Shown here: in pieces, positions 1,658 to 53,851 of the stretch
How positions within the stretch are numbered: position 1 is the stretch's first letter
Layout: every line of letters begins with the position of its first letter
Assembly: GCF_000379025.1 (NCBI RefSeq)
Contig: NZ_KB900617.1
Location: 710,316-774,315 of the forward strand
Direction: 5' to 3'
DNA: 64,000 nt
From: Orenia marismortui DSM 5156
GTDB lineage: Bacteria > Bacillota > Halanaerobiia > Halobacteroidales > Halobacteroidaceae
The notes under the pieces: model-generated
What the model was told of the DNA's origin: nothing
The model's input: the letters and a program-made list of their open reading frames with translations, nothing else
Databases searched by the model: none
Made by a program: the position numbers and the translations under genes

Positions 1658-3536
1658 TTTCTACTTCACCACCTAATAGATCCATTCTTGCATCTAAATT
1701 ATTCATAACTCCACATCCACTACACTTGTCAAACCTACAATCTGGAGTAAGCTCTTCGTTAAGAGCTTTTTGATATTCTAATCTTAAATATTCTTTATTT
1801 ACACCTACTTGTAAGTGCTCCCAGGGCAGTCTAGTATCTAAATCAAAATCTCGATAAGCATATTCTTCTATATCATAACCTAAATCTTCAAAAGCTTGTT
1901 TCCAAAGGTCATATCTAAAGTGTTCATTCCATCCATCAAATTTTGCACCTAACTGCCAAGCTTTTTCTATAATATCAGCAACTCTTCTATCACCTCGAGC
2001 AAATACAGATTCTAATATACTCAATTCAGGATCTGTCCATGTAAATGATAAATCTTTTCCTCTTAAATTATCACGCAAATATTGTTGCTTCTTCTCAATT
2101 TCTTCTAAAGTATTAAATTTAGACCACTGAAATGGTGTATGTGGCTTAGGAACGAAAGTAGATACACTAACCCCTACCTTTACTCTTCTTTTATTATTAG
2201 AATTCAATCTAATTTGATCTCCTAAAGCTGATACCTTCTTAGCTACATCAACTATACCTTGTAAATCTTCCATAGTTTCTGTAGGTAATCCCATCATGAA
2301 ATATAACTTTACCCTTCTCCAGCCTTCCTTAAAACAATCACTTACCGATCTGATTAGATCATCTTCACTAACCCCTTTATTAATAACATCCCGTAATCGT
2401 TGGGTTCCAGCCTCTGGAGCAAAAGTTAATCCAGTCTTTCTTACTGCTTGTAATTCTTTAGCCAAATCTAGCGAAAAAGAATCTACTCTCATTGATGGTA
2501 AGGCAATGCTTACCCTTTGATTCTTATACTCTTCTAATAAGCTTTTGGCTAAATCTTCTACTCTGCTATAATCACTTGTACTTAACGAAGCTAATGATAA
2601 CTCTTCATATCCAGTACACTCAATTAACTGCTTAGCTAATTCCTTGATACGTTTATGACTTCTTTCCCTTACTGGTCGGTAAATCATTCCTGCTTGGCAA
2701 AAACGACAACCTCTAGTACAACCTCTTGCTACTTCTAAAGTAACTCTATCATGTACAATTTCCATATAAGGAACGATAAATTTATCAGGATAGTAAGCTT
2801 CATCTAAATTATTAACTACACGCTTATCTAATTTATCTGGAGCATAATCTTCTGCAAAAAAATCAGTTACAGTACCATTTCTATTATAGTCTATCTTATA
2901 AAAACTTGGGATATAAACCCCTTTAATCTTAGCTAAAGATTTTAGTAATTCTTTCTTGTTCCCATTAGTTTTTTTCCATAATATATATTGATCAACAATT
3001 TCATCAATTGCAGCTTCTGCCTCCCCTAATAAAATAACATCTATAAACGGTGCTAAAGGTTCAGGATTAAAAGCACAAGGTCCTCCTGCAATTACTATAG
3101 GATCTTCTTTACCTCTATCTTCACTTCTAACTGGAATACCAGCTAAATCTAACATATTTAAAATATTCGTATAACTCATCTCATATTGTAAAGTAAATCC
3201 TAAAATATCAAATTCATTTATTCCTATCTTATTTTCTAAGGTAAACAAAGGAATATTATTTTCTCTCAACCTTTCTTCCATATCTACCCAAGGTGCATAA
3301 ACACGTTCTGCAGCTACATCTTCTCTTTCATTTAATAAATGATATAAGATTTTGATTCCTAAATGAGACATAGCTACTTCATAGACATCAGGAAAAGCTA
3401 AAGCAAACTTAACCTCTACTTGATTTAGATTCTTTTTTATCATATTAATCTCATTACCCATATACCTAGTTGGTTTACTTACTGTTGGCAAGATTTCTAG
3501 TATCTTTTGAGATAAATTTATTGCCACATTTATCAT
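1650..3536 (-). CDS. TIGR03960 family B12-binding-domain/radical SAM protein
   Basis: This protein of about 628 residues carries the radical SAM cluster motif CTRGCRFC at residues 273-280 (Cys273, Cys277, Cys280, a CX3CX2C spacing). The N-terminal half (residues about 40-190) has the Rossmann-like pattern of B12-binding-type domains (LAFPDVYEVAMSHLGIKIL, IAGGPCAFNPEPLAPFIDV). A second cysteine group, CRFDKCSGCG, lies at the C-terminus. Family members are uncharacterised iron-sulfur enzymes, probably methylthio- or methyltransferases by homology class. The ATG at 3536 touches its GAGGAAGG site, so the GTG three codons later (3527) may be the true start. It overlaps the DUF2344 partner downstream. 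Confidence 0.9.
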   Translation of the reverse strand: MINVAINLSQKILEILPTVSKPTRYMGNEINMIKKNLNQVEVKFALAFPDVYEVAMSHLGIKILYHLLNEREDVAAERVYAPWVDMEERLRENNIPLFTLENKIGINEFDILGFTLQYEMSYTNILNMLDLAGIPVRSEDRGKEDPIVIAGGPCAFNPEPLAPFIDVILLGEAEAAIDEIVDQYILWKKTNGNKKELLKSLAKIKGVYIPSFYKIDYNRNGTVTDFFAEDYAPDKLDKRVVNNLDEAYYPDKFIVPYMEIVHDRVTLEVARGCTRGCRFCQAGMIYRPVRERSHKRIKELAKQLIECTGYEELSLASLSTSDYSRVEDLAKSLLEEYKNQRVSIALPSMRVDSFSLDLAKELQAVRKTGLTFAPEAGTQRLRDVINKGVSEDDLIRSVSDCFKEGWRRVKLYFMMGLPTETMEDLQGIVDVAKKVSALGDQIRLNSNNKRRVKVGVSVSTFVPKPHTPFQWSKFNTLEEIEKKQQYLRDNLRGKDLSFTWTDPELSILESVFARGDRRVADIIEKAWQLGAKFDGWNEHFRYDLWKQAFEDLGYDIEEYAYRDFDLDTRLPWEHLQVGVNKEYLRLEYQKALNEELTPDCRFDKCSGCGVMNNLDARMDLLGGEVESE

Positions 3537-27765: not shown

Positions 27766-27861
27766 CAGGCAGAGTAAGATTTGTGCGTCAAGTGTTAGAA
27801 GATGGGATGTTGCTTCTAAACGAAAGATTTTTCTGCGGTACAAATCTGCATCCACTGCCAC
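27766..27861 (+). ncRNA. Tetrahydrofolate (THF) riboswitch
   Basis: The leader shows the ordered hallmarks of the THF aptamer: GGCAGAGTA at the start, GTGCGTCAAGTGTTAG, GATGGGATGTTGC, an ACGAAAG stretch, CTGCGGTAC, and the closing CTGCATCCACTGCC. The terminal helix pairs GGCAG (27768-27772) with CTGCC (27855-27859). A later hairpin (about 27868-27903) and the gene's ribosome site near 27940 offer an expression platform. There is no obvious T-run, so control of translation is possible. It precedes a folate transporter, as in other Firmicutes. Confidence 0.93.
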
Positions 27862-35781: not shown

Positions 35782-36099
35782 TTATAAATTAAAAAAGCCC
35801 CTCTCTCATCCTTGATTAAGGACGAAAGAAGGGTCTTCCGTGGTACCACCTTAGTTAATCTATAGTTGTTAGCTTATAGCCTCTAGCTATTAGCTACTAA
35901 TTACTAGTTTATAGATTCTCTCTAAATTCTAATAACGGTAGAAGACCGGAATAGCCTACTTTTAACTTCAGCTAAACAGCTCCAGAGCTACTTCAATTAA
36001 TATCCCAAAGAGTACCTTTCAGACTATGAGTACTCATCTCTTATAGGGAGGGATTAACCTACTCCTCTCCTTCAAAGCTTTTATCCTATCTAATTGTTA
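35782..36099 (-). ncRNA. T-box leader controlling valS
   Basis: Read on the minus strand, the leader has a stem I region with GAGGAGTAGG and AGATGAGTACTC. It also has the T-box sequence AAGGTGGTACCACGG at 35838-35852 and an intrinsic terminator (about 35785-35835) ending in TTTTTT. Uncharged tRNA-Val would stabilise the antiterminator. A GTC triplet in CCGGTCTTC near 35950 is a candidate valine specifier, but I cannot confirm the stem. Between stem I and the antiterminator lies a family B repeat (about 35862-35922) closed by an 8-bp stem, an apparent insertion into a tolerant part of the leader. Confidence 0.92.
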
Positions 36100-44530: not shown

Positions 44531-44607
44531 TGGCGCGCCCGGGAGGATTCGAACCTCCGACCTCCTGATTCGTAGTCAGTTACTCTATCCAGCTGAGCTA
44601 CGGGCGC
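44531..44607 (-). tRNA. tRNA-Arg (anticodon ACG)
   Basis: A 77-nt cloverleaf, with acceptor GCGCCCG/CGGGCGC, D-arm AGCTCAGCTGGATAGAGT, anticodon loop CTACGAA and T-arm GGAGGTTCGAATCCTCC. CCA is encoded. Confidence 0.97.
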
Positions 44608-44674
44608 ATATATAAAATATTAGTTAATAGTTTAAATTATTGTGACCTCTCAAATATCAATTATAATTATAATT

Positions 44675-44752
44675 TGGGGTGGATAATGGGATTTGAACCC
44701 ACGGCCTCAGGAGCCACAATCCTGCGCTCTAACCAGCTGAGCTATATCCACC
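44675..44752 (-). tRNA. tRNA-His (anticodon GTG)
   Basis: The cloverleaf has an acceptor GTGGATA/TATCCAC with the extra 5' G (position 44752) facing C73, as required for histidine identity. The anticodon loop is TTGTGGC and the T-arm CGTGGGTTCAAATCCCAT. CCA is encoded. Confidence 0.97.
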
Positions 44753-44927
44753 ATATTCTATATATATCTATTATATTATAATAGTTAAGCAAAGTGTTAC
44801 ACTTAATATATTTTTAGAAATAAAAAAATATACTGCTAAAAAGCAGTCTGATTTAATTTGAGAAGTTTATTATCTCTCAAAAGGTATCTTTTCCATTTTT
44901 TGAATTTATATACCTACAAGATAAAAA

Positions 44928-45004
44928 TGGCATGCCTGGGAGGATTCGAACCTCCGACCCACGGCTTAGAAGGCCGTTGCTCTGTCCAGCTGAGCTACAG
45001 GCAC
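44928..45004 (-). tRNA. tRNA-Arg (anticodon TCT)
   Basis: The 77-nt cloverleaf has acceptor GTGCCTG/CAGGCAT (a G-U at pair 1-72), anticodon stem ACGGC/GCCGT with loop CTTCTAA, T-arm GGAGGTTCGAATCCTCC, and encoded CCA. Confidence 0.97.
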
Positions 45005-45008
45005 ACAA

Positions 45009-45090
45009 TAAATCAATTTACAATTAATAATTTATAATGTACAATTAAAAGATTTAAGAACTTGGCTTTAATTGGAAATTATCAATTGAA
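45009..45090. repeat. Dispersed repeat (family A copy) between tRNA-Gly and tRNA-Arg
   Basis: The spacer carries tgtacaattaaaagattt and an inverted piece aattgaatt. The next spacer (45181-45286) holds a close relative with tgtacaattaaaatcttt, so the two tRNA spacers were filled by the same repeat family. Confidence 0.5.
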
Positions 45091-45096
45091 TTTTAT

Positions 45097-45173
45097 TGGA
45101 GCGGGAAACCGGACTCGAACCGGCGACACCCAGCTTGGAAGGCTGGTGCTCTAGCCAACTGAGCTACTCCCGC
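45097..45173 (-). tRNA. tRNA-Gly (anticodon TCC)
   Basis: The cloverleaf has acceptor GCGGGAG/TTCCCGC, anticodon stem CCAGC/GCTGG with loop CTTCCAA, T-arm GCCGGTTCGAGTCCGGT, and encoded CCA. Confidence 0.97.
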
Positions 45174-45180
45174 ACATTAT

Positions 45181-45286
45181 TTAATTTACAATTTATAATG
45201 TACAATGTACAATTAAAATCTTTAAGGTCTTGTAATTCTTGAAGTCTTTGATTCTTAATTGTCAATTCTAAATTGTCAATTGAACT
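45181..45286. repeat. Dispersed repeat (family A copy) between tRNA-Pro and tRNA-Gly
   Basis: It holds repeated aatgtacaatgtacaatt units and the inverted segment ttaattgtcaattctaaatt. An apparent 61-residue minus-strand frame across here and tRNA-Pro is an artefact. Confidence 0.5.
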
Positions 45287-45288
45287 TT

Positions 45289-45365
45289 TGGTCGGAGCAG
45301 CAGGATTTGAACCTGCGACCCCCTGGTCCCAAACCAGGTGCGCTACCAAACTGCGCCATGCTCCG
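45289..45365 (-). tRNA. tRNA-Pro (anticodon TGG)
   Basis: The cloverleaf has acceptor CGGAGCA/TGCTCCG, D-arm GGCGCAGTTTGGTAGCGC, anticodon stem CCTGG/CCAGG with loop TTTGGGA, T-arm GCAGGTTCAAATCCTGC, and encoded CCA. It is the first tRNA of the cluster. Confidence 0.97.
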
Positions 45366-53161: not shown

Positions 53162-53424
53162 ATGCCCCCTTTAACTATTTCCCCTTTATATAATAATGAA
53201 AATCTTATCTTTAATAATTATAGTTAATCTAAAAAAGCAGGATTACTCACCTCTTTCTTAGTAAAATCATTTGATTTAAAGCTTTTATTATATATAGATT
53301 TTTATATTAATCATAATACTAATATAATTAATTCTACATTTAATCCCTTCTACCTGCTTATTACTCAAATGAAAAGTAATACTTTTATAGTAAATAAAGT
53401 TAATTCTTAGTTTCAAAGGGATCT
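53162..53424. other. Upstream region of the Omp85 gene; no feature resolved
   Basis: The AT-rich stretch must contain the Omp85 promoter, but no well-spaced -35/-10 pair is evident to me. No open frame is seen. Confidence 0.35.
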
Positions 53425-53745
53425 TATGCCAAGTCGATTCGGTAGTACCACGATCAGCATTGCGTAATTAATATAGAAGATCGTGGTTATGCCAAGTCGA
53501 TTCGGTAGTACCATGATCAACATTGCGTAATTAATATAGAAGATCGTGGTTCTCTCCCCTTAAAACTTAGTACCAAATACCCCAAGAGCCCTCCTAAAGG
53601 ATAACCTAAAAAAAGCCACTGAGAGTTAGGAGGCCTCGATGACCTTGCTAAAGTATGACCCAAAGAACTAGCCTTCATACTGGTTCAACATTTCGTAATT
53701 AAAATTGAAGAAGCAGTATTAGAGTCCCTAGGTATCGGATAAAAT
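53425..53745 (+). ncRNA. Candidate structured RNA: three related hairpins with a conserved loop
   Basis: Two 63-bp direct repeats (53425-53487 and 53488-53550) differ at two bases. Each folds into an 8-bp stem, CCACGATC (53449-53456) with GATCGTGG (53480-53487), around a 23-base loop. In unit 2 the C-to-T change keeps pairing (a U-G wobble) only if the plus strand is the RNA. A third version (53677-53719) keeps most of the loop (caacattNcgtaattaa) but uses a different stem, ATACTG/CAGTAT. Between them another hairpin, CCTCCTAA (53590-53597) with TTAGGAGG (53626-53633), forms. A constant loop on changing stems suggests a selected RNA fold. No gene or known family is recognised. Confidence 0.5.
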
Positions 53746-53851
53746 TAGACAAGAATCAAAATTCTTCTCTTTATATATTTTAACGTTTACTTTTTAATAT
53801 GGCAAATAATTCATAAAATAATCTATAAATTAATTTGTGTTAATAATTAAC

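Follow-up and report, generated by a model that had tools for sequence, protein, structure and literature searches.

The gene-free gap at 53162-53851 of the window (the whole 64,000-nucleotide stretch of Orenia marismortui DNA analysed here) raises the question of whether the hairpins that it contains belong to an undescribed RNA or to a repeat. The gap measures 690 bases between its two flanking ORFs, an Omp85 gene and an MBL hydrolase gene in the initial annotation. All the elements that had been described in it were located: two direct tandem repeats of 63 bp at 53424-53486 and 53487-53549, with 61/63 bases equal (97%); a third, diverged copy of their loop at 53685-53711, with 24/27 bases matching, on an ATACTG/CAGTAT stem at 53677-53719; and an extra hairpin, CCTCCTAA/TTAGGAGG, at 53590-53634. 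The stretch first delimited, 53425-53745, folded better than 100/100 dinucleotide shuffles (z -3.8), but the real feature is wider, a mobile composite of 350 bp at 53394-53743. This composite and all parts of it described below are given on the plus strand. Ordinary RNAs, namely five tRNAs, a THF riboswitch and a T-box leader, were seen elsewhere in the window (44534-45365, 27768-27859, 35815-36084).

Comparison with two sister species (G001 and G002) found that both are without the composite at the same site. They keep the Omp85-side sequence and the downstream CTTCTCTTTATATATTTTAACG, and the empty orthologous site between them reads AAATAAAGTGACTTAAG in G002 (L304) and AAACAAAGTAATTTAAG in G001 (L303). 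Searching the window's own assembly at the DNA level revealed about 17 dispersed copies, and the ends of the composite recur in about 14 other copies in this genome. The own-genome copies and the empty sister sites rule out a unique RNA gene at the window site. Thus, of the proposal of an undescribed RNA or repeat, the undescribed repeat stands, but a dedicated RNA gene does not, given the dispersed copies, the absence in the sisters, the mobility and the nesting described below. The composite arrived after the split from the sister species or was lost twice, arrival being simpler. It is directly preceded by AAATAAA and ends with ATAAA; two readings would explain why ATAAA stands at each end, a 5-bp duplication or an IS605-type target combined with a similar right end. 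At the empty site of G002 (L304, about 3405-3421), ATAAAGTGACTTAAG matches the left-end consensus ATAAAGTGACTTCTTAG of the host repeat, and may be an excision scar or a chance match.

The copies in the window's own genome share the left end ATAAAGTGACTTCTTAGTTTCAAAGGGAG, one to three units of 63 bp (B units), then CTCCCCTTGAAACTTAG, which pairs with the left end, followed by variable middle hairpins and the right end GTTAGAGTCGCTTAGGTATCGGATAAA; some copies, such as L018, are without any B unit. In the related genome G025, near-identical copies of the host, 136 bp long, are free of the module; in four other host copies there, a 62-nt B module separates host bases 84 and 85 precisely, and no base is duplicated. 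Since host copies exist both with and without the module, we conclude that the composite consists of a non-autonomous host repeat, about 136 bp long and with ATAAA at each end, into which independent B modules have inserted. A larger host repeat with the outer stem AGATGTTT/AAACATCT was found in about 20 copies carrying B modules in genome G016 (loci L162-L181), almost always antisense to both neighbour genes. Palindromic elements of several genera (L037, L043, L025, L031) share another type of module, AACAGTTCATG..TACGGAGTGCCTGTGGTGC and its reverse, which sometimes occupies the loop of the same hairpin of the host.

In the window, the left part of the host (53399-53423) provides the 5′ stem arm CTTAGTTTCAAAGGGA, which pairs with 53553-53573, the 3′ arm CTCCCCTTAAAACTTAG of the first host hairpin followed by TACC. 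In the module-free host copies L045/L272, L029 and L018 this hairpin is intact, as GTTTCAGAGGGAG..CTCCC(A)CTGAAAC. B unit 1 (53424-53486), a module of two hairpins, H1 and H2, sits in the loop of this host hairpin and is followed directly by unit 2 (53487-53549). Unit 1 was matched at 53427-53490 (E 5.3e-5) by the independent covariance model R2, built from ten equal-length units, none of them from the window's genome; unit 2 was matched by model R1, of which it is itself a training sequence. The H2 hairpin of unit 1 (53450-53486) has the stem CCACGATC/GATCGTGG and the constant loop AGCATTGCGTAATTAATATAGAA, and that of unit 2 (53513-53549) the stem CCATGATC/GATCGTGG, with a U-G pair on the plus strand, and the loop AACATTGCGTAATTAATATAGAA. 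The initial annotation had read the unit 2 substitution as preserving pairing only in a plus-strand RNA. The C-to-T change does give U-G, but it is weak evidence alone, other copies in the same genome carrying CCAGGATC/GATCGTGG with a G-G mismatch. Further downstream are the extra hairpin, which is the middle hairpin of the host and differs from copy to copy, and the third, diverged H2 hairpin, ATACTGGTTC/GAAGCAGTAT (53677-53719), with one G-G mismatch and no clear H1, matched by R1 at 53678-53718 (E 1.2e-4). The right end of the host, ..GAGTC(G)C(T)TAGGTATCGGATAAA (53720-53743), is common to nearly all right-end copies.

The B module is about 58-64 nt long. Its consensus is YGACG-NNNN-TCGAT-N'N'N'N'-TARTR-stem-(A/T)(A/T)CATTGCGTAATTAAAAAGAA-stem'-AGTG, in which H1 has a 4-bp stem and H2 a stem of 9-10 bp with the loop AACATTGCGTaattaAAAAGAA; the constant loops of the two hairpins are TCGAT and CATTGCGT. 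The stems vary widely, as GGCC/GGCC, GCGC/GCGC, GGTC/GACC, GAAC/GTTC and GCAT/ATGC in H1, and as ACTGAAACT/AGTTTCAGT, ATCTAAATT/AATTTAGAT, GCAAGTTTT/AAAACTTGC and many others in H2. Among 116 distinct modules, 95.8% of stem cells are paired versus 69% when shuffled, two-sided compensatory changes occur at 13/14 base pairs, and the covariation score is 0.68 versus 0.07-0.13 when slid, in an alignment that was fitted to the structure, so that these counts lean towards it. A first, independently aligned set of 11 modules agrees, with compensatory changes at 7/10 pairs. A MAFFT alignment of unequal modules was set aside, its 3′ arms being out of register. The stems of the B module thus show the compensatory covariation of a structured RNA or single-stranded DNA element, and the idea of a constant loop on a variable stem is valid class-wide, with strong compensatory change. 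The third loop copy as in-window evidence of selection is superseded by this class-wide alignment. G-U pairs exceed A-C pairs on the plus strand by 117:27 (64:27 without the outermost pair), which indicates that the plus strand is the folded strand under selection; in G016 the bias is gone (18:15).

The covariance search of relatives suggested by the initial annotation covered 59 genomes of the class and found the B module in 36 of them with R1 and in 37 with R2; a single genome holds up to 48 copies. When 299 genomes sampled from the phylum were searched, one marginal match (E 8e-4) fell outside the class. The surroundings of the module in other genera are quite different. An Rfam search, likewise suggested, returned no credible match for the window feature or for seven relative loci, which rules out a known RNA family. 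A scan of viruses with an IUPAC pattern gave two contigs in which the module is absent around the match, and these were taken as chance. An earlier description of the family was not found in the open-licence literature; the B module appears to be an undescribed family of structured mobile elements.

Pairs of filled and empty sites showed that the B module inserts precisely and without target-site duplication. In genome G029, of two tnpB copies (L090/L091), one is without the first module, so that AAGAG|CCTTC is found versus AAGAG-64 nt-CCTTC, with an overlap of zero. In the IS605 copies of G019 (L143/L142), a module of 58 nt, CGACGG..CAGTG, is absent from the sibling copy, and another copy has an extra module head to tail with an older one (L143 versus L142). 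The added module has a different H2 stem; the array therefore grew by insertion and not by duplication. A different palindrome-rich tnpB insert of about 65 nt in G019 (contig C1, L142:3440-3507, compared with sibling L143) is unrelated to the B module. Modules also insert into their own kin: nested modules were found in the H2 5′ arm at GTGCTG|AGTC (G037, G038, G046) and at GTGCAG|AAACC (G016), and un-nested siblings exist for those of G046, G037 and G038. In families f1 and f6, modules lie antisense to tRNAs, directly at their 3′ ends, and rebuild CACCA. The module thus occurs alone, in tandem and nested, in targets that range from IS605 genes and operon gaps to tRNA 3′ ends, a different repeat and other modules of its kind. 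The left flank of solo modules is biased to T at -2 (81%) and to G or A at -1 (89%), mostly as TG, in a statistic that includes non-independent copies (tRNA ends and one G016 host repeat); three mapped sites depart from TG (GAG, AGC, CTT). The initial annotation had named multi-copy hits with target-site duplications as the mark of a mere mobile repeat. The copies are many, but the core module inserts without duplication; selection on structure is thus in keeping with a mobile element whose movement requires folding. Such selection possibly also acts in mRNAs carrying the module.

Taken together, these data make it probable that the window feature is a composite non-autonomous mobile repeat and that its independent B modules were moved in trans as a folded single strand. 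A candidate trans-acting enzyme would read the constant loops of the folded strand; with recognition through these loops, the stems may drift provided that they pair. Our best guess is single-strand transposition of the HUH/Y1 (IS200/IS605-like) type, which would fit best because there is no target-site duplication, the preferred T-purine step resembles the module 3′ end AGTG, and arrays grow at module boundaries. The distribution of Y1 transposase genes does not follow that of the module (G034, G042 and G028 have modules without Y1), and co-occurrence with Y1 is uninformative on dependence. No module lies within about 1.5 kb of 20 Y1/RAYT-like genes of the class or of those in the window's own genome, except at an IS605 of G000 (L100), which has a module inside. 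An IS with a Y1 TnpA and ends identical to the B module was not seen in a non-exhaustive comparison of ends. More tentatively, the B module may represent a distinct class of mobile unit, about 60 nt long, with two covarying constant-loop hairpins and no known transposon end motif, inserting without duplication through a candidate enzyme or an RNA or ssDNA intermediate, and preferring its own boundaries, so that it builds heterogeneous arrays in essential operons.

Such arrays were found at several operon sites. In many genomes the fabG-acpP gap lacks the module, being empty or occupied by other sequence; two genomes of the genus g1 and most of those of g15, a Halanaerobium-like genus, have between one and three modules there, and G043 has divergent units. 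Further modules lie in rplB-rpsS, in ffh-rpsP and between two hydrogenase-like genes. In tandem arrays of family f3 (L146, L147, L149, L153), the 3′ arms of H2 are broken in the upstream units but not in the last one, which is intact, and the array is preceded by a partial 3′ half; the broken units may reflect either decay or function. In the window's own genome and its close relatives, the fabG-acpP gap holds another AT-rich repeat, like TTAACTATCAATTATCAATTGTCAATTA (L205, L204, L207, L208). Operon landings would put hairpins into the mRNA and may alter its processing or stability. The recurrence of modules in the fabG-acpP gap across three families could also reflect a function retained at this place.

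These arrays bear on a rather unlikely alternative, that the module is a class-specific cis-regulatory or mRNA-processing RNA whose constant loops bind a protein or nuclease and tune operon expression, copying being secondary. The strong compensatory change of the stems and the plus-strand G-U bias agree with it, as do the same-strand arrays just upstream of ribosome-binding sites in fabG-acpP (G001, G002, many members of f3, and the divergent units of G043), ffh-rpsP and rplB-rpsS. Outside G016, 19 loci are sense and 6 antisense to co-directional neighbours, but the 19 include orthologues, and in G016 the ratio is 0:15, all antisense. Moreover, many relatives have no module in the fabG-acpP gap, copies lie in tnpB coding sequence, at IS ends and antisense to tRNAs, and copy numbers and stems vary even among congeners.

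The manner of array growth and insertion weighs on two further explanations. Passive spread by recombination and replication slippage at hairpins, without dedicated transposition, would account for tandem arrays, broken upstream copies and mosaic elements, but is improbable given the complete modules inserted precisely at unrelated sites without homology and a two-hairpin fold tightly kept class-wide. If the modules were folded cassettes that an integrase strings together head to tail, in the manner of attC sites and with tRNA 3′ ends as targets, head-to-tail arrays with differing stems and precise joints would likewise result, as would the insertions at tRNA 3′ ends that rebuild CACCA. The modules, however, carry no payload, their insertion sites are diverse, and no integrase was found among the flanking ORFs read, so that a substrate of a site-specific recombinase is very improbable.

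The B module would be among the smallest precisely inserting mobile units known. Its matched stem changes under fixed loops, seen across the class, document in nature which features an enzyme that mobilises it, or a partner that binds its RNA, has to recognise, and the arrays in fabG-acpP, rplB-rpsS and ffh-rpsP are natural experiments on inserted hairpins and the expression of essential genes.

Among known short repeats, no defining sequence feature of the BOX, REP or IS200/IS605 families was found in the B module, and it is therefore filed under none of them. The module alignments do not show the unpaired GTAG or CGTC at the end of a single hairpin that defines REP sequences: units start with YGAC, and GTAG occurs only in type III units, between the two hairpins. 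A RAYT gene flanked by the repeats was not found either, and the lack of flanking association rules out a RAYT-driven REP. The likeness to REP/REPIN elements (GTAG or CGTC tagged; PMC3733652, PMC3116915) lies in short palindromic mobile repeats without coding capacity that form tandem or paired arrays; the B module differs as two direct hairpins of different type with 58-64 nt per unit. Nor does it have the terminal inverted repeats and target-site duplication of a classical MITE, as the overlap in the tnpB pair is zero and the G025 query is contiguous at 84/85. With PATEs, the ends-only elements of IS200/IS605 (PMC7290912), it has in common that no target site is duplicated and that hairpins lie close to the ends; like them, it would move in trans and may insert 3′ of a short motif. 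However, its ends match no IS605 end seen here, its stems vary, and in place of a fixed tetra- or pentanucleotide target there is a T-purine preference with exceptions, from partly non-independent copies. The streptococcal BOX elements have the form boxA-boxB(n)-boxC, with an inner module common to different outer elements (boxA/C and boxE/F in S. suis) (PMC3049150). The A-B(n)-C architecture recurs in the window's own genome with n = 1-3, judged on architecture only and not on sequence; both are folded, intergenic outer elements, mobile in the past, with a variable number of tandem inner modules. Unlike BOX elements, B modules are also found inserted singly, within coding genes, at tRNAs and inside one another, and are class-wide with constant loops and covarying stems. 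The closest correspondence is with two 64-nt tnpB inserts with a 61-nt core, LI and RI, reported in Halanaerobium hydrogeniformans as absent elsewhere in that genome and with their source left open (PMC7290912). Their core and their positions in tnpB match those seen here, and they are B modules; as the same two inserts are described, we infer that G029 is H. hydrogeniformans. What had been unexplained inserts with no other copies in their genome are thereby identified as members of one class-wide family.
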